From: Pseudomonadota bacterium | Lineage (GTDB): Bacteria > Pseudomonadota > Alphaproteobacteria > UBA828 | Length of the DNA stretch: 62,612 nucleotides | Assembly: GCA_027624955.1 (NCBI GenBank) | Contig: JAQBTG010000019.1 | Coordinates: forward strand, 1 to 62,612 | Direction: 5' to 3' | In this document: piece after piece, positions 24,948-37,814 of the stretch | How the letters are laid out: every line of letters begins with the position of its first letter | Numbering within the stretch: the stretch's first letter is position 1 | The notes under the pieces: generated by a model | Seen by the model: the letters and a program-made list of their open reading frames with translations, nothing else | Databases searched by the model: none | What the model was told of the DNA's origin: nothing | Translations under genes and position numbers: made by a program

Positions 24948-25415
24948 ATGCTACTGCTCAAGCCTCTGGATTTGAAACAGATCGCCGATCACGCCGAGGC
25001 GGATTATCCGAGAGAGGCGTGCGGTCTGTTGCTGGGCTTTCAGCGTGCCGATGGGCATATCGAAGTGACCCAGGTGGCCGCGAGCAAAAATATGGCAGCG
25101 CCGGGGCTTAATGACCGTTTTGAGGTCGATCCCGAATTGCGCCTCCGGTTGATGCGCCAAGCGCGTGACTCGGTGCCGGTTGGCGCGGAGGGCGCGGGGC
25201 GCGGCATCATCGGCCATTATCATTCCCATCCGGACGGTAGCGCACGGCCTTCCGCTACCGATCTCGCGATGGCGTGGGAGCCGGGCCTGGTGTGGTTGGT
25301 AACTGCCGTGGTCGCCGGCCAGGCGGTGCAATCAACGGCGCATCTGCTGTCTGAAGGCGGCACCCGTTTCAACGATATCGGGCTCGACTGTTTGCCCGCC
25401 GGCAACGAGGCTTAA
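24948..25415 (+). CDS. M67 (JAMM/Mov34) metallopeptidase
   Basis: 155 residues forming one JAB1/MPN domain. The zinc site is complete: Glu in REACGLLLG (about 24) and HYHSHPDGSARPSATD (His-x-His and Asp at about 88-103). Bacterial proteins of this type cleave C-terminal extensions from ubiquitin-like sulphur carriers (as with QbsD or Mec+) or act alone with unknown targets. No ThiS/MoaD-like protein is nearby. It is closely followed by a threonine aldolase gene (11 bases), so the two are probably cotranscribed. Confidence 0.85.
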   Translation: MLLLKPLDLKQIADHAEADYPREACGLLLGFQRADGHIEVTQVAASKNMAAPGLNDRFEVDPELRLRLMRQARDSVPVGAEGAGRGIIGHYHSHPDGSARPSATDLAMAWEPGLVWLVTAVVAGQAVQSTAHLLSEGGTRFNDIGLDCLPAGNEA

Positions 25416-26961: not shown

Positions 26962-28437
26962 TTATTCTCGATTGTATAGGGCGGCGACGGGAAGGCCGCT
27001 CGGGACGCGGGCGGGGACAATGTCGGGCATGCGGTCGGCGAGACCGTCTTCCAGAGTCTTTAGGAAGGCGATCAAGTCGTCGATCTCAGCCTCAGTCAAT
27101 TTAAGGCCGCTGGCAAGAATGTAGGAGACCGAGCTGCGCTTGCCCCGATTCCAGCTATGCGTGCCGTCGGCGTTTTCGGCGTCGGCGAGGTTTAAGGGAT
27201 CGTTATGGTGGCGGATGGCGGCGTGCAGAGTGGTGGCGACGCCATCATGGAAATAGGGCGCGCTGAGCGTGACGTTGCGCAACGGCGGCGTGCGGAATTT
27301 GTAGAGATCGCGTTTGTCTTCGGTGACGTGAAAGCGCCCAAGATCATCCGAGCTGATATTCTTACCGGGGCCGATTTGGCGCACGGCCAATGAATGAAAC
27401 TCGAAATCGCTGAACAGCGGGCCGGAATGGCAGGCGGCGCATTTGCCTTTGCCAAAAAACACCAGCGCGCCCGCTTTGGCACCGTTGGAAATTGCCAGGT
27501 CATCGCCGAGGAGATATTCGTCCCACGGCGTATGCCGCGTGGCGAAGGCGATTTTTTCAAAATGGCCGATGGCGTTGACCAGTTCGACGATGGAGAGCCC
27601 GTCAAGCGAGGTATCGGGGTAGGCGGCGCGCGCGAGGCGGCGGTATTCTTTCTGCCATTCCTTGAGTTCAAGCTCGCCGTCCTCGTCCCTGACGGTTTCA
27701 CTGAGCCGGGGGGCGATGAGCCGCGTGACAAGCGCCTCCTGCACGCGTTTTTGCTGCACCGGACCGCTTGCGCCCGCCCCTGCTTGGGCCAATTCGTTGG
27801 GCAGCTCCGCATGGTCATCGGGAAGGTCGCGGTCTGAGTGGTCGCCGGGCCGGCCCAGCATTTCATCGACACCGGCAATCGGAAACAGCGCCTGCGCGGC
27901 AAGAAGGTTTTCGACGCCGTCGGGGAAGCGGTCTCCCATGGGGGAAGCGAAATAGATCGTCGTATCGTCTTTGTCGTAGGAGCGCGCTTCGCGTATCGCG
28001 TCGTCATCGAATTCGACGCGGCCGTCCCAAAACATGTTGGTCACGGCGGGGTGCCCGCGGTTCCACACATCGGGTGAATTGCGCGGTGTTTCGTTGCCGC
28101 GTCCGCCAGCCAGACGATGTTCGCCGAGCCGCTCGCCATCGACGCCGACCGCAAGCGGTTGCGCGTTCGAGGTGCCGCGAATTGGCAGATGGCAGGTGGC
28201 GCAGGCGACTTCGCGCGCACCACTGAGGACGGGGTCGAAAAAAAGCGCCTGGCCCAAGATGTATTTGGCGTCGATGACGAAAGGCGGACTTTCGAGCGGC
28301 GTTTGCCCGTGCGACGCGATCACAGCGCGCAGCATTTTGTCGTCGACCGATTGCGACAGCGCAACACCCGGCGCGAGCAGCAGCATGAGCAAAGCGGCAA
28401 ATACCGCCGCGCGGGTTTTCGCGCCCCAATTTCTCAT
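26962..28437 (-). CDS. Di-haem cytochrome c peroxidase family protein (MauG-like)
   Basis: 491 residues from MRNWGAKTR, with an N-terminal signal peptide (hydrophobic run and cut near ALSQS). Two haem c motifs are visible: CATCH (about 80, in REVACATCHLPIRG) and CAACH (about 340, in GKGKCAACHSGPLF). These are the CcpA/MauG hallmarks of a periplasmic electron-transfer peroxidase, which reduces H2O2 or oxidises a protein substrate. It is longer than classical CcpA, with extra sequence between the two haems, including an acidic segment (DHSDRDLPDDHAELPN). The ATG at 28437 is chosen because it starts a proper signal peptide. It lies 64 bases downstream of the FecR-like gene, same strand. Confidence 0.85.
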   Translation of the reverse strand: MRNWGAKTRAAVFAALLMLLLAPGVALSQSVDDKMLRAVIASHGQTPLESPPFVIDAKYILGQALFFDPVLSGAREVACATCHLPIRGTSNAQPLAVGVDGERLGEHRLAGGRGNETPRNSPDVWNRGHPAVTNMFWDGRVEFDDDAIREARSYDKDDTTIYFASPMGDRFPDGVENLLAAQALFPIAGVDEMLGRPGDHSDRDLPDDHAELPNELAQAGAGASGPVQQKRVQEALVTRLIAPRLSETVRDEDGELELKEWQKEYRRLARAAYPDTSLDGLSIVELVNAIGHFEKIAFATRHTPWDEYLLGDDLAISNGAKAGALVFFGKGKCAACHSGPLFSDFEFHSLAVRQIGPGKNISSDDLGRFHVTEDKRDLYKFRTPPLRNVTLSAPYFHDGVATTLHAAIRHHNDPLNLADAENADGTHSWNRGKRSSVSYILASGLKLTEAEIDDLIAFLKTLEDGLADRMPDIVPARVPSGLPVAALYNRE

Positions 28438-28501
28438 GTCATATCCGCAGCAGTTTTCGCATGGCAATAAAATGCCATGGCGCGGCCTGCCAATCCAGGC
28501 G

Positions 28502-29161
28502 TTAACGATCAAGGAAGATGATGCGCCCGATCAGCGGGCCGCCCTCGGCCTCGGCCAAGGGGTCGACGGCGAAGGTAACCTGACTTTCACCAGCGGTAGC
28601 GCGGTAGTGTCCGCCCGGGGCAAGGCGGAGTGCCGTTTTGGCCATATCCGCGGCGCCGCCCTGTAGCGCCACTACGATCGGCGGTGTGGCGCTGTCGAGG
28701 CGCTGCACGGTCACTTCCGTCGCTGCGCCTGAATATCTAAAGGCCGGTGTCAGGCTGAACAGGATAACTTGGGGCGGCGCAGCGCTGTCGTCGCCGGGCG
28801 CTGCGCGGTAGGCCATGGCGCCGCTTTTGTCGGAGAGGGCGTCTGACAGGATCAGGCTGCCGCCGTCGCATTCGACCAGTTCGCGAAATACCCGGCCGCG
28901 CTGTACCGCGCTCTGCTCAATGCCGACGGTGACCACACCGCCGGCGATCGTCTCGCGCCAGCATGAGCGCAGATAGCCCAGCACCAGCCGCCCGCCCGAG
29001 CCGAGCGTAATCACCGTTCCGGCTTCCACCATGTCGAATAATTGCACGTCGCCGGTATCGCCTTCGCTCTCTTCGACGATGGCAACCAATTCGCCGGCGC
29101 GCGCCGACGTCAGGGCGGCGGCGAAAAGTGCCAGCAGGCAAAGGAAAAGAACGAGTTTCAT
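28502..29161 (-). CDS. Exported FecR-like domain protein
   Basis: 219 residues with a signal peptide (MKLVLFLCLLALFAAALTSA, cut after SARA). The mature protein is beta-rich, and its first 80 residues follow the FecR-like pattern: VEAGTVITLGSGGRLVLGYL, then SCWRETIAGG. FecR-like domains outside iron uptake are periplasmic and often sit beside caspase-like or surface proteins. Cys pairs (SCWRE, ELVECDGG) could form a disulphide. The start is 7 bases beyond the stop of the WD40-caspase gene, so cotranscription is very likely. Precise role unknown. Confidence 0.7.
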   Translation of the reverse strand: MKLVLFLCLLALFAAALTSARAGELVAIVEESEGDTGDVQLFDMVEAGTVITLGSGGRLVLGYLRSCWRETIAGGVVTVGIEQSAVQRGRVFRELVECDGGSLILSDALSDKSGAMAYRAAPGDDSAAPPQVILFSLTPAFRYSGAATEVTVQRLDSATPPIVVALQGGAADMAKTALRLAPGGHYRATAGESQVTFAVDPLAEAEGGPLIGRIIFLDR

Positions 29162-29168
29162 GTCAATT

Positions 29169-32159
29169 TCAATCCGCCGCGTCGGCACTGATCAACGCCA
29201 ACGGAAAATCAGCCTCCACGGGTTTGCCGACGGCTGGTGTCTGGCGGCCGGCCGTCAATTTCTTAATCCGCCGGGAAATATAGGCGTCGAGCGTTGATAC
29301 CGTTACTTCGCCGTCGCCGAAAAGATCGGCGCGACCTGACAAACCTTCCAATAAGGCTTCGGTAAAAGCGCCGTTCTCCCAATCGGCGTTCTCCAGTGAA
29401 AGTTGGGCGTGGGTCGACGAAGCGAAGACGATCACGCCGTTTTCCGGGCTCGACAGATCATTGACCACCCGCACCACGTCGCTCGACGGCTCGCCGGGCC
29501 TACCCCAAATGCCGCCGGCGCGGCAGGTGTCGACGAACAGCAAGCTGCGGGCAGCGAGTGACGTCAGCGCTTGCTTGATTTCGTCATAGGCCAAGGCAGT
29601 TTCCGCCAGGTGGGCTGGATCGCCGTCATGCGGCAGGAAGAAATAGCGCCCTGATGCGTCATCGACGCCGTGCCCGGCCAGAAACAATGCCGCGAAATCA
29701 CCCGCTCGGGCCTCGCGGGTGAGCCAAGCCAAGCCGTCACGCAGCGCTGCGCCGCTGGCCTCGGCGTCGGAGAGAATACGTACATGAACCTCGCCATAGG
29801 CTCGGCCGTCTTGCCCGCTCAGTATGGCGGCGAAGTCGCGGGCGTCCTTATGTGCGAAACTGAGGCGGAGTTCTTCGGCGGCGTAATTGCTGACGCCGGC
29901 AGCGAGCAAATAGAGATCGGGGCGCTTGTCCTCGGCGCCGCCGGACCAGCGCAGGTTAAGGCGCGCCGCTTCGCTCACCGTGCCGCGCGTGCCTTCCGCT
30001 ACCACGGTTATTTCGCTGTCATGGCGAGGCACAGTGAGCGCCATTTCAAACGTTGTGCCGCTTGCGAGATCGGCAAGATCGCCTTCCAGCATGGCGATCG
30101 GCCGGCCATCGGCGCGTACCTGAACGGCGCGCAGCGTATCGCCCACGGCGGCGCGCACGGATAGCTCCAGGGTGACCCGCGGTGCGGATATCTCAGCGCC
30201 ACCCGTGAGCGCAAGCGAAGCGATGACCGGCGGCAATAAATTTCCGATGTTACCATCCGCTGTCTGCGTCTCGGTGGCATCTGCGTCCTCATCGTCTAAT
30301 GCCCGTCTGACGATATCGGGCCGGTAGTAGACATTGCGGAAGCGGCTGACTGAGAAAAAATCAGCGGCTTGGTCGGGGCCGCGGTTAACGTGCCAGCCGG
30401 CTAGCGAATCGCCGCCCGGCGAAGCCAGGTAGTGACCGGCAGGTGTCCAGGCGACCCAGCGCGCGCTGTCTTTGTGCGGAAACATCGCCAGTAATTCGGT
30501 GCCGTCCGTCATGCGGTACCAGCGCAGCGAGCCATCGCCGAATGCGCCGACGGCGAGGCGGCTATCGGGTGTGATGTTGAGCGCCCAGGCCTCGCCCGGC
30601 GCCTGGAAGCTCCATATTTCCTGTGCGTCTGTGCCGTAGCGGATTATCCGCTAGCGGGTGCCAAGCAGGATGCCGCTGGCGTCCGGGGTCACGGCGTAGC
30701 TTTCCGCACGTTCATAGGGCAGCAGAGCAAGCGCCGCACCATTCAAAGTCGGTGCATAGCTGCCTTGCCAATCGGCGACCGCCAGGGCTGTTGATTGCAG
30801 AATCGGTGGGGTGAAATTCTCGGCCGGCGGCGGCGGATCGAGCAGGAGTGTCCGCGCCTGGAGCGTGAACAGTGCCGCTTCGCTGCGTTCAGAAGAAAAT
30901 TTAAAATAGACTTCGGATCCGTCGGCGGAGAGCTTGAAATCGCTGCCCATGTCGCGAAAATCGGCGGCGTGCGAGCGCCATTCGAACAGCTTGACATGAT
31001 TTTCGTCGATGGCGCCAAGCGCCGGCTCCGAACTGGCGAAATAGACGCCGCCCTCGGCGCGCGGCGCGAGATAGGTAACGCCTTTGGCGGAAGCCGCGGC
31101 GACGTCTTGCGCTTGACCCCGCCCGCCATCCTCCCAGCGCCGCACGGGATGCGCACCAGCGCGTTTGAATTCGCCGCCGGCATAAAGATACTTGCCGTCA
31201 GACGACCAAGCGGTGCGCCACATATCGCCGTTATCGACATCATTCATTCGCGGGCAAAATTGTAGCGCCAAATTCTCCACCAACAGCACATCGACACGCT
31301 GGCGCTCGGAATAGCCGACGGCCAAATATTTTCCGTCGGGCGAGAAGCTGGCCGATGTCGGCCAATCACCACCCGGCGCGCGGCGTGCGCGGATCAAATT
31401 GAATTCGCTATCGAACAGGCGGATAGACCCGTCTAGCGAAACCGTCACCAGCCGGCCGAGGCCGTCGAACTCCACCCAACCTGAACTCGGCGCCGCCACG
31501 CCCTCGAAATTGTCGGCGTCGAGATAGGGCAGGTCGGAGGCGCTGCAGTTTGGGTCGTCGACATCGTTCTCGTCGCCGCGCGGCAGGCCACCCGGATGGT
31601 GCACCGGGTGATCGGCGGCGACGGTGAAATCGCCCACCCGGTAAACCCGAAATCCGAAACCGCCCTTGAACGTGACCGCGAGATGACGGCCGTCGGGCGA
31701 ATACGCCAGATGTTGACCGCGGTGCGGCAAATCAGCGACGCGGCGGATCATTTCCCCGCTGGCAACATCGAAGAGATAAAGGCTCCAATTGAGGCCGCCT
31801 GATTCGCCGGTCCATCCCGTTGTCGCGATGGTGCCGCCATCGGGCGAGATGGCGACGCCGTAAAGTGCGCCCTCGCGCGCTGCGCCGATCGGCACGCGCA
31901 GCGTGCGGATCAACCTGCCATCAAGCAGCGACCACAGCCGCAACGTCTTGTCATAGGATGCCGAGGCCAGGAGATTGGTGCCGGGATGAATGGCGATGCG
32001 GCCAATTTTGGCAGTGTGCATGCCGGTTTCAATGCGCAGCACCGGCACTTCCGAAAGCCCGGCCGGCGTGTCGGCCCGCGTGGCGCTTGCGGTGCAAAAC
32101 ATAGCGATGCCCAAGGCAAGGCGCGTCAATAGGGCGACCGCACGCGACGTTGTGATCAT
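29169..32159 (-). pseudogene. Exported WD40-repeat caspase-like peptidase, interrupted by an in-frame TAG
   Basis: A 996-codon frame with a signal peptide (residues 1-30, ending TRADTP), a WD40-like beta-propeller over about residues 38-640 (blades such as LLASASYDKTLRLWSLLDG and SPDGRHLAV), a beta-sandwich linker, and a C-terminal peptidase C14 domain (about 744-980). The catalytic dyad is intact: His about 830 in LFLAGHGVDD and Cys about 879 in LFVDTCRAGG. The single fault is TAG at 30651-30653 (GTR stop RIIRYGTD); the propeller continues in frame on both sides. A Trp codon TGG changed to TAG would explain it. As written, only the propeller would be made; a second start at 30512 could give a separate signal-less caspase part. 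FecR-like and peroxidase genes follow. Confidence 0.8.
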
Positions 32160-32233
32160 GATTACGCTATTGTTAATCCGGACATTGTATAGTCAATTTG
32201 TATTCTAGGGACTTTACCTGAGGAGACACCGAT
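32160..32233. promoter_or_regulatory. Divergent promoter region of the caspase operon and a small exported peptide
   Basis: Seventy-four bases, AT-rich (TTGTTAATCCGGACATTGTATAGTC), separate the two starts. On the plus strand TTGTTA (32170-32175) and TATAGT or TATTCT lie at reasonable spacing for a sigma-70 type promoter of the small gene; the minus-strand promoter must overlap it. AGGAGA at 32221 is the ribosome site of the small gene. Confidence 0.35.
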
Positions 32234-32383
32234 ATGCTGCACTGGCGTTTATTGATGGCGGCACTCGTTTTGACCTTCGTCATGGGTCTGGCGCTGCCGC
32301 TCACCGGCCTGAGCACGAGCGTGGCGTGGGCCGGCGATCCTGACGATCCCTACGTCCCGCCGGAAGATCCCGACGATCCCTGA
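32234..32383 (+). CDS. Small exported acidic peptide, unknown
   Basis: A 49-residue product: a signal-like hydrophobic stretch (residues 5-33, MAALVLTFVMGLALPLTG) with an Ala-rich cut site (VAWAG), then a tiny mature tail of about 15 residues made of DPDDP units (GDPDDPYVPPEDPDDP). A strong AGGAGA ribosome site lies 7 bases ahead of the ATG, supporting a real gene. The acidic proline repeats might bind calcium or stay flexible. I know no characterised family. It is divergent from the WD40-caspase gene. Confidence 0.65.
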   Translation: MLHWRLLMAALVLTFVMGLALPLTGLSTSVAWAGDPDDPYVPPEDPDDP

Positions 32384-36434: not shown

Positions 36435-37814
36435 TTGGCCCGGCGCCACTATCCTTTGGTTATATTTGATGCGAAGGCGCAGCGATTGCGAAAACTCCTA
36501 ATCCCCGCGAGAGGCGGCCTCATCCAGCTTATGGCGTTGAGCGCCCTGTTGTTTGCCATCGCTGGCGCGCTCCAGGCGCAAGAGAAGGCCCCGCCAAATT
36601 TCCATACTGCCTACGCCGCTTACGTTCGGGGCGACTATGAGGTGGCGCTCAATATCTGGCTTGTCCTCGCCAAGGGCGGCGATGCCGATGCCCAGTTCAA
36701 TGTCGCGGCGCTCTATGACAATGGCTGGGGTGTCGAGCGCGACGTGGAAAAAGCGGCGTTTTGGTATGAACGCGCGGCGGCACGCAACATTGCGCCGGCG
36801 GAATTGGTTCTGGCGCATATGTTGCGACGCGGAGAAATCGGTGCGCCGGACGGTGAGCTGGCGTTGCGCCGCCTGCGTTCGGCGGCGCATCGGGGTTCCG
36901 CCAGTGCTCAGTTCGAACTTGGCGTCGCCTATGACCGGGGCGTGGGCGTCACGCAAAATTACGCCACGGCCGCGATCTGGTATGAAAAGGCCGCGGCCCA
37001 GGGCTTGACGGAAGCAATCTACAATCTTGCCACGTTATTCGACGAAGGGCTCGGCCCGCCGAAAGATCATCTCGTCGCGTTGGCCTGGTACCGTCAAGCC
37101 GCGCGAGCGGGCAATGCTTTGGCCGAGAATAATATCGGAAATTTGTATGAAAAAGGCCTCGGCGTGCCGCAGGATTATGTGCGCGCGGTTGAATGGTATG
37201 GCAAGGCGGCGGCGCGCGGCTTGGCCATCGCGCAGAATAACCTCGCCACCATGTATCATCTCGGCCACGGCGTCGCGCGCGACTTCAAGGCCGCGGCGCG
37301 CTGGTACAGTTTGGCAGCCGAGCAGGGTGAACAATCGGCGCAAAACAATCTCGGACTATTGCTGGCCAACGGCCTGGGCGTCACGCGCGACCTGGTCGCG
37401 GCAACCAAATGGTTTCTCGTCGCCTCTGGCGGCCCCGACAAGGAATTAGCCATTCGCGCCAGCACCCATAGCCAAATGCTTGCGGCAAAACTCGTCGGCG
37501 ATGAATTGGCGGCGGTGCAAGACGCGGTTGATCAAACCAGCGCGGCGGCAGCCATCAACGTTGAGATTGAATCCGCGCGGCTTGTGCCCGTCCCCGTTAC
37601 AACCGCGGCCCTCGGCCACCGGACCGTGACGGTCCAGCGTTTGCTTTCAGCGCTCGGCTATTACCAGGGCGCGGTGGACGGGTTGATTGGCCCGGTCACA
37701 TTGGAGGCGTTGCAATATGCCCGGAGGGAAGAGGGCATCGGCGCTTCAGTGGGAATTTCCGCCGAGATGATCGACGCGCTCGCTGAAAGTCTCCGTCGCC
37801 GTTCAACGCAATAG
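36435..37814 (+). CDS. Sel1-repeat protein with C-terminal peptidoglycan-binding domain
   Basis: About 440 to 459 residues depending on start (TTG at 36435, TTG at 36486 or ATG at 36531). A hydrophobic N-terminal segment ending ALQAQE indicates export, so the 36486 or 36531 start is more likely. Seven or so Sel1/TPR-like repeats follow (for example AQFNVAALYDNGWGVERDV, AIYNLATLFDEGLGPPKDH, AENNIGNLYEKGLGVPQDY). A C-terminal peptidoglycan-binding fold carries VQRLLSALGYYQGAVDGLIG (about 395-415). Expected role: a periplasmic scaffold linked to cell wall, as in ExoR/PodJ-type proteins. Stands alone. Confidence 0.8.
   Translation: MARRHYPLVIFDAKAQRLRKLLIPARGGLIQLMALSALLFAIAGALQAQEKAPPNFHTAYAAYVRGDYEVALNIWLVLAKGGDADAQFNVAALYDNGWGVERDVEKAAFWYERAAARNIAPAELVLAHMLRRGEIGAPDGELALRRLRSAAHRGSASAQFELGVAYDRGVGVTQNYATAAIWYEKAAAQGLTEAIYNLATLFDEGLGPPKDHLVALAWYRQAARAGNALAENNIGNLYEKGLGVPQDYVRAVEWYGKAAARGLAIAQNNLATMYHLGHGVARDFKAAARWYSLAAEQGEQSAQNNLGLLLANGLGVTRDLVAATKWFLVASGGPDKELAIRASTHSQMLAAKLVGDELAAVQDAVDQTSAAAAINVEIESARLVPVPVTTAALGHRTVTVQRLLSALGYYQGAVDGLIGPVTLEALQYARREEGIGASVGISAEMIDALAESLRRRSTQ

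Follow-up and report, generated by a model that had tools for sequence, protein, structure and literature searches.

Exported caspase and FecR-like genes in a marine alphaproteobacterial cassette: a possible variant of a recurrent peptidase–CHASE2 cyclase arrangement

The four-gene cassette described here, which encodes a WD40-caspase, a small FecR-like protein, a di-haem protein and a divergent micropeptide, may be the form that an extracytoplasmic peptidase–adaptor–cyclase module of Alphaproteobacteria takes in one genus, a reading whose chances we consider even. The cassette lies in the window, by which we mean the whole 62,612-nucleotide stretch of DNA that was analysed (Table 1). Partnership of the caspase with the FecR-like protein and an ancestry linked to cyclases appear fairly well supported by comparison of sequences and gene orders; cleavage and the parts played by the di-haem protein and the micropeptide are what we infer beyond them. 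The cassette points to a connection between extracytoplasmic proteolysis and signalling by cyclic AMP/GMP inside the cell. Little is known of what bacterial caspases and CHAT proteins do apart from defence and cell death, the input of the CHASE2 domain has been described as unknown (PMC5192318), and the recurrent gene order gives both CHASE2 sensing and clan CD peptidase roles a concrete partner and a specific residue.

Table 1 Features of the cassette and of its surroundings in the window
Feature	Position	Strand	Length	Description
Di-haem protein gene	26962..28437	-	491 aa	MauG/CCP superfamily; apparent signal peptide; CXXCH at 79-83 and 333-337
FecR-like protein gene	28502..29161	-	219 aa	Small, exported, two-domain; unnamed alphaproteobacterial family; invariant Cys67, Cys98 and Arg119
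WD40-caspase gene	29169..32159	-	996 codons	Exported WD40 beta-propeller and Peptidase_C14
C14 domain	29229..29897	-		Part of the WD40-caspase
Catalytic Cys879	29523-29525	-		C14 domain
Catalytic His830	29670-29672	-		C14 domain
In-frame TAG	30651-30653	-		Codon 503 of the WD40-caspase gene
Divergent intergenic region	32160..32233		74 bases	Common to caspase and micropeptide genes; partly conserved in three species
Micropeptide gene	32234..32383	+	49 aa	Apparent signal peptide, then GDPDDPYVPPEDPDDP at the end
JAB-domain protein	24948-25412		155 aa	Prokaryotic JAB domain
Sel1-repeat protein	36435-37814		459 aa	About 4 kb from the cassette

Composition of the cassette and its distribution within the genus

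Pfam domains above cut-off were detected in the caspase (WD40, 66.6 bits; Peptidase_C14, 53.8 bits against a cut-off of 21.4) and in the di-haem protein, and in neither the FecR-like protein nor the micropeptide. His830 and Cys879 of the caspase were invariant among seven aligned proteins, and its N terminus carries an apparent signal peptide, as judged by eye. An earlier note on this DNA had described a periplasmic caspase-like peptidase with a propeller; domains, catalytic residues and apparent export bear this out, but the gene is not a single open frame, being interrupted by an in-frame TAG. Trp occupies the same place in the related species G001, G003 and G004. The gene is open in G003 and free of stops in the two contig pieces over which it is split in G004, and dN/dS of the caspase domain between the window and G003 was 0.076, indicating strong purifying selection. 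With a frame that is uninterrupted elsewhere and a caspase domain under such selection, the TAG is either a very recent change or an error of the assembly. The part after the TAG lacks a separate signal peptide, and, barring read-through of the TAG or an error in the assembly, the caspase encoded in the window genome is probably non-functional. Recoding of the TAG was also considered, but nothing favours it above a point mutation or an error of assembly. The match to the NCBIfam model of EACC1-associated caspases (NF047832) reached 84.7 bits, below its cut-off of 140, and an AlphaFold model of the full WD40-caspase, built with seven sequences, was set aside at a pLDDT of 43.

The gaps between caspase and FecR-like genes and between FecR-like and di-haem genes are 7 and 64 bases, respectively. 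For the FecR-like protein, the position and export given in the earlier note hold and the family name does not: none of 13 family members tested matched Pfam FecR (PF04773), at E values up to 1. The di-haem protein belongs to the CCP/MauG superfamily (CCP_MauG, PF03150, 97.8 bits against a cut-off of 25.6) and has two haem motifs, CATCH and CAACH. It missed the NCBIfam cut-offs for MauG (TIGR03791, 117 of 444 bits), MbnH (TIGR04039, 132 of 363) and the His-Xaa-Ser-associated MauG-like proteins (TIGR03981, 293 of 340), the last being its closest model; superfamily and haem sites agree with the di-haem peroxidase proposed earlier, whose peroxidase activity is putative. It shares the CCP_MauG domain, two CXXCH haem sites and export with the MauG, MbnH and His-Xaa-Ser-associated enzymes; it differs from them in falling below the equivalog cut-offs, in the residue at position 411 and in lying in a cassette without Hxs genes. 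His411, invariant in seven aligned di-haem proteins, lies close to the point at which the C-terminal haem would be expected to have its second axial ligand, where we take Met to be the residue of bacterial cytochrome c peroxidases and Tyr that of MauG.

The micropeptide is the divergent, apparently exported 49-residue peptide with DPDDP units that had been noted before. Its mature motif, DPDDPY...DPDDP, is kept; the gene is open in G003 and G004, with relics in G001 and G002. The Tyr between the acidic units is conserved in G000, G003 and G004 and in the G001 relic, and dN/dS values of 0.26-0.42 over 43-49 codons indicate modest constraint. A whole-genome search with the DPDDP pattern found two places besides the micropeptide. 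Weak matches to the micropeptide in other genomes were judged to be chance; those inspected lay in or over unrelated frames.

The four-gene cassette occurs in one marine alphaproteobacterial genus only, where five of the six species have it in recognisable form. G003 and G004 carry the full set of four; in G001 the caspase is frameshifted and a micropeptide relic is fused to it; in G002 the caspase is deleted and the micropeptide relic is frameshifted. The FecR-like and MauG-like genes are open in all five carriers. The sixth species, G005, cleanly lacks the cassette: its deaminase gene begins 46 bases after the PEP_hydrolase gene, with no cassette gene between them. Given the same flanking genes across the genus and this clean absence, the four genes behave as a unit of gain and loss, in line with the neighbourhood conservation that the earlier note had proposed to check. 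Either G005 lost the cassette or it never had it, the tree of the flanking genes being weak. The genus genomes are draft assemblies, so part of the gene damage may be assembly error. As previously noted, the caspase, FecR-like and di-haem genes share one transcription direction; they are, however, part of a more extended series of genes read the same way (UPF0261, PEP_hydrolase, cassette, deaminase), so that they need not form a single operon. Elsewhere in the window, the gene of the JAB-domain protein directly precedes a beta-eliminating lyase gene, an arrangement conserved in G003, G004 and G005.

Gene order around the FecR-like family

The set of four had seemed an unfamiliar combination, and as a set it is; its core of caspase and FecR-like protein, by contrast, belongs to a wider recurrent arrangement. 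A scan of 84,980 species genomes yielded 62 FecR-like loci, nearly all in Alphaproteobacteria, picked by a motif in the FecR-like family and phylogenetically non-independent. Among the loci with enough downstream sequence, a CHASE2 adenylate/guanylate cyclase was the next downstream gene in 50 of 55 outside the genus and in none of four within it. In a class-wide draw, whose genomes overlap with those of the scan, 28 of 289 genomes contained the family, and at 20 of the 27 loci that lay outside the genus a CHASE2 cyclase followed the FecR-like gene.

Peptidases of clan CD, either TPR-CHAT or C14 proteins, were encoded directly upstream on the same strand in 13 of 54 loci outside the genus; such a gene also directly precedes the FecR-like gene in the window and three relatives. 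Upstream-adjacent frames were of clan CD in 11 of 23 cases, compared with 15 of 398 other neighbouring frames (odds ratio 23, p = 4e-9, the p value being only indicative because the loci are related). On well-supported branches of the FecR-like tree, at least three changes were required for CHAT and at least four for C14, which argues that the association recurs and was not inherited as a single linkage. By a crude pattern test, several of the CHAT proteins have lipoboxes and several of the C14 proteins signal peptides; many of the full-length peptidases are apparently exported, and most retain intact His/Cys motifs. In three loci (L072, L074 and L098), a CHAT-TPR lipoprotein and an exported C14 caspase are encoded in tandem directly upstream of the FecR-like and CHASE2 cyclase genes. 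Many loci pair the FecR-like protein and the cyclase without an adjacent peptidase, and on plasmids with a CHAT-TPR protein, CHAT genes were found with no annotated cyclase in the two regions inspected.

The window genome encodes five CHASE2 proteins, none of them in the cassette, and it has a second FecR-like gene (39% identity; locus L024, C15 7991-11760) with a Sel1-repeat protein upstream and a CHASE2-guanylate cyclase downstream. Similar Sel1, FecR-like and CHASE2 cyclase arrangements occur in G001 and G003; in G004, an assembly that is 84% complete, no CHASE2 protein was seen. A Sel1-repeat protein is likewise encoded near the cassette itself (Table 1).

Two Azospirillum plasmids (L152, 6887-11476; L153, 6881-11503) carry a FecR-like gene annotated as hypothetical, followed by a cyclase and a ShlB/FhaC-type secretion protein, an order that suggests a link to two-partner secretion. 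In six other loci (L090, L094, L101, L108, L109 and L126), a PPK2 polyphosphate kinase cluster, identified by Pfam on one representative, lies upstream of the FecR-like gene and divergent from it.

A candidate mechanism and competing readings

AlphaFold predicted the FecR-like protein, from 47 sequences, with a pLDDT of 86 as a signal peptide followed by an N-terminal beta domain, which a loop joins to a C-terminal beta sandwich. Confidence drops below 50 in the inter-domain loop (residues ~106-122). Cys67 and Cys98 are invariant in the family, and Arg119, usually preceded by a hydrophobic pair, is the sole invariant residue within positions 99-130 (47 of 47 sequences); it is equally invariant in FecR-like proteins without an adjacent peptidase. 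Foldseek returned no match to the model under 1e-3, and VIA-align gave middling rows only, too weak to place the protein in a fold family and led by a cell-surface anchoring domain (5ix9; Z 8.5, r.m.s.d. 2.6 over 65 residues). In this structural comparison the C-terminal half resembled generic Ig/FN3 sandwiches. Characterised non-caspase C14 peptidases prefer Arg or Lys at P1 (PMC5756287). This preference, together with the invariance of Arg119, leads us to propose the linker as a candidate cleavage or docking site.

In the mechanism that we favour, the propeller of the exported WD40-caspase would recognise a periplasmic or surface feature, and the protein would act on, or be held by, the FecR-like protein, whose flexible linker it might cut at Arg119. 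The FecR-like protein, once changed, would in most relatives go on to affect both the CHASE2 sensor domain and cyclic nucleotide synthesis. In the genus of the window, whose gene order has the MauG-like di-haem protein instead of the cyclase, the output would be either a redox or peptide-modifying step or a CHASE2 cyclase encoded elsewhere in the genome. Families, gene orders, purifying selection, gain and loss as a unit and the TAG are established from the sequences; physical partnership, cut, signal and output are the steps that we infer. Cleavage at Arg119 is, in our estimate, unlikely. We regard as distinctly unlikely the general scheme in which CHAT lipoproteins and exported caspases, as extracytoplasmic peptidases of clan CD, gate CHASE2 cyclases by cutting a secreted adaptor after the linker Arg, the genus representing a cyclase-free, di-haem variant.

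The many FecR-like and cyclase pairs without a neighbouring peptidase speak against the proposed module, as does the state of the caspase: interrupted in the window, frameshifted in one species and lost in another, it is evidently dispensable to the FecR-like and MauG-like pair, which is kept where the caspase is gone. The same damage, with the micropeptide lesions and the absence of the whole cassette from G005, could mean that this is a decaying, non-essential cassette, whose caspase is a pseudogene here and is vanishing across the genus while the other genes persist for unrelated reasons, with no joint mechanism. We find this rather unlikely, given the strong purifying selection on the caspase domain, its open or stop-free frames in G003 and G004, the intact FecR-like and MauG-like genes in every carrier, and the draft state of the assemblies.

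The di-haem protein lends itself to two other readings. MauG and MbnH modify Trp residues of proteins; by analogy, the enzyme of the cassette might oxidise the conserved Tyr of the micropeptide, or a residue of the FecR-like protein. Its best NCBIfam match and the retention of the Tyr between the acidic units would fit such a role, but it falls below every MauG and MbnH cut-off, has an invariant His where Met or Tyr would be expected, and is kept in G002, where the micropeptide is frameshifted. We consider this modification improbable. Very improbable, in our judgement, is oxidant-triggered proteolysis, in which the di-haem protein would sense peroxide and activate or protect the periplasmic caspase. 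The earlier note had imagined such a link between oxidant sensing and proteolysis from adjacency, and the same-direction adjacency is indeed conserved in the genus, with the FecR-like and MauG-like genes both retained where the caspase is lost. Co-retention without the caspase, however, argues against the caspase as the target of the di-haem protein. Moreover, among the loci examined, a MauG-like gene accompanies the FecR-like gene in this genus only; in other genera it is CHASE2 cyclases and clan CD peptidases, and no redox proteins, that are conserved as partners. Relatives of the di-haem protein at 49-51% identity occur in another genus of the same family, with no caspase or FecR-like match in the neighbouring stretches checked. 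The link to oxidant sensing thus finds no support.

Related systems

Fusion of WD40 repeats to a caspase is an architecture already known in metacaspases (PMC3501461). Bacterial WD40 metacaspases and orthocaspases likewise join the repeats to a C14 domain with a His/Cys dyad (PMC3501461, PMC5756287); the window caspase differs from them in being exported and interrupted, in having its caspase domain at the C terminus and in its fixed FecR-like and MauG-like neighbours. A metacaspase–CHASE2 fusion has been reported in Trichodesmium (PMC3501461). The recurrent peptidase–adaptor–cyclase module itself appears to be undescribed: in the literature searched, which was thin in subscription journals, we came across no account that pairs exported peptidases of clan CD with this FecR-like family and CHASE2 cyclases. 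Within that literature, the CHAT domain never occurred together with CHASE2, no paper on a caspase and CHASE2 was titled on this arrangement, and none dealt with FecR in combination with a caspase or WD40 protein.

The FecR-type gene of the Burkholderia contaminans BiofilmReg operon (PMC5192318) similarly encodes a secreted protein directly before a CHASE2 sensor; the operon differs in having a histidine kinase for the cyclase, a LysM domain, no peptidase and a FecR-type protein of another family. A further likeness is found in Sinorhizobium meliloti, where a FecR-domain protein (SMc02177), an outer-membrane barrel (NsrA) and a TPR protein (SMb20495), along with the periplasmic SMc02178, act with the CHASE2 cyclases CyaD1, CyaD2 and CyaK in the control of infection (PMC5498481, PMC13001267). 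That system shares with the module a CHASE2 cyclase, an exported FecR-type gene nearby, an outer-membrane barrel, an extracytoplasmic input to cAMP and, in the same regulon, a TPR protein. A Pfam FecR match is reported for SMc02177, unlike the family studied here, the two being compared by description only; no peptidase is reported in S. meliloti, and the window cassette has no cyclase. Perception of the plant signal did not require SMc02177 (PMC5498481), a result that counts against the module and against a role as a simple sensor. A WD40-C14 gene other than that of the cassette, adjacent to an outer-membrane beta-barrel gene (PF03797/PF13505) reminiscent of NsrA, is divergent from the FecR-like and CHASE2 cyclase genes in loci L117, L118 and L119.
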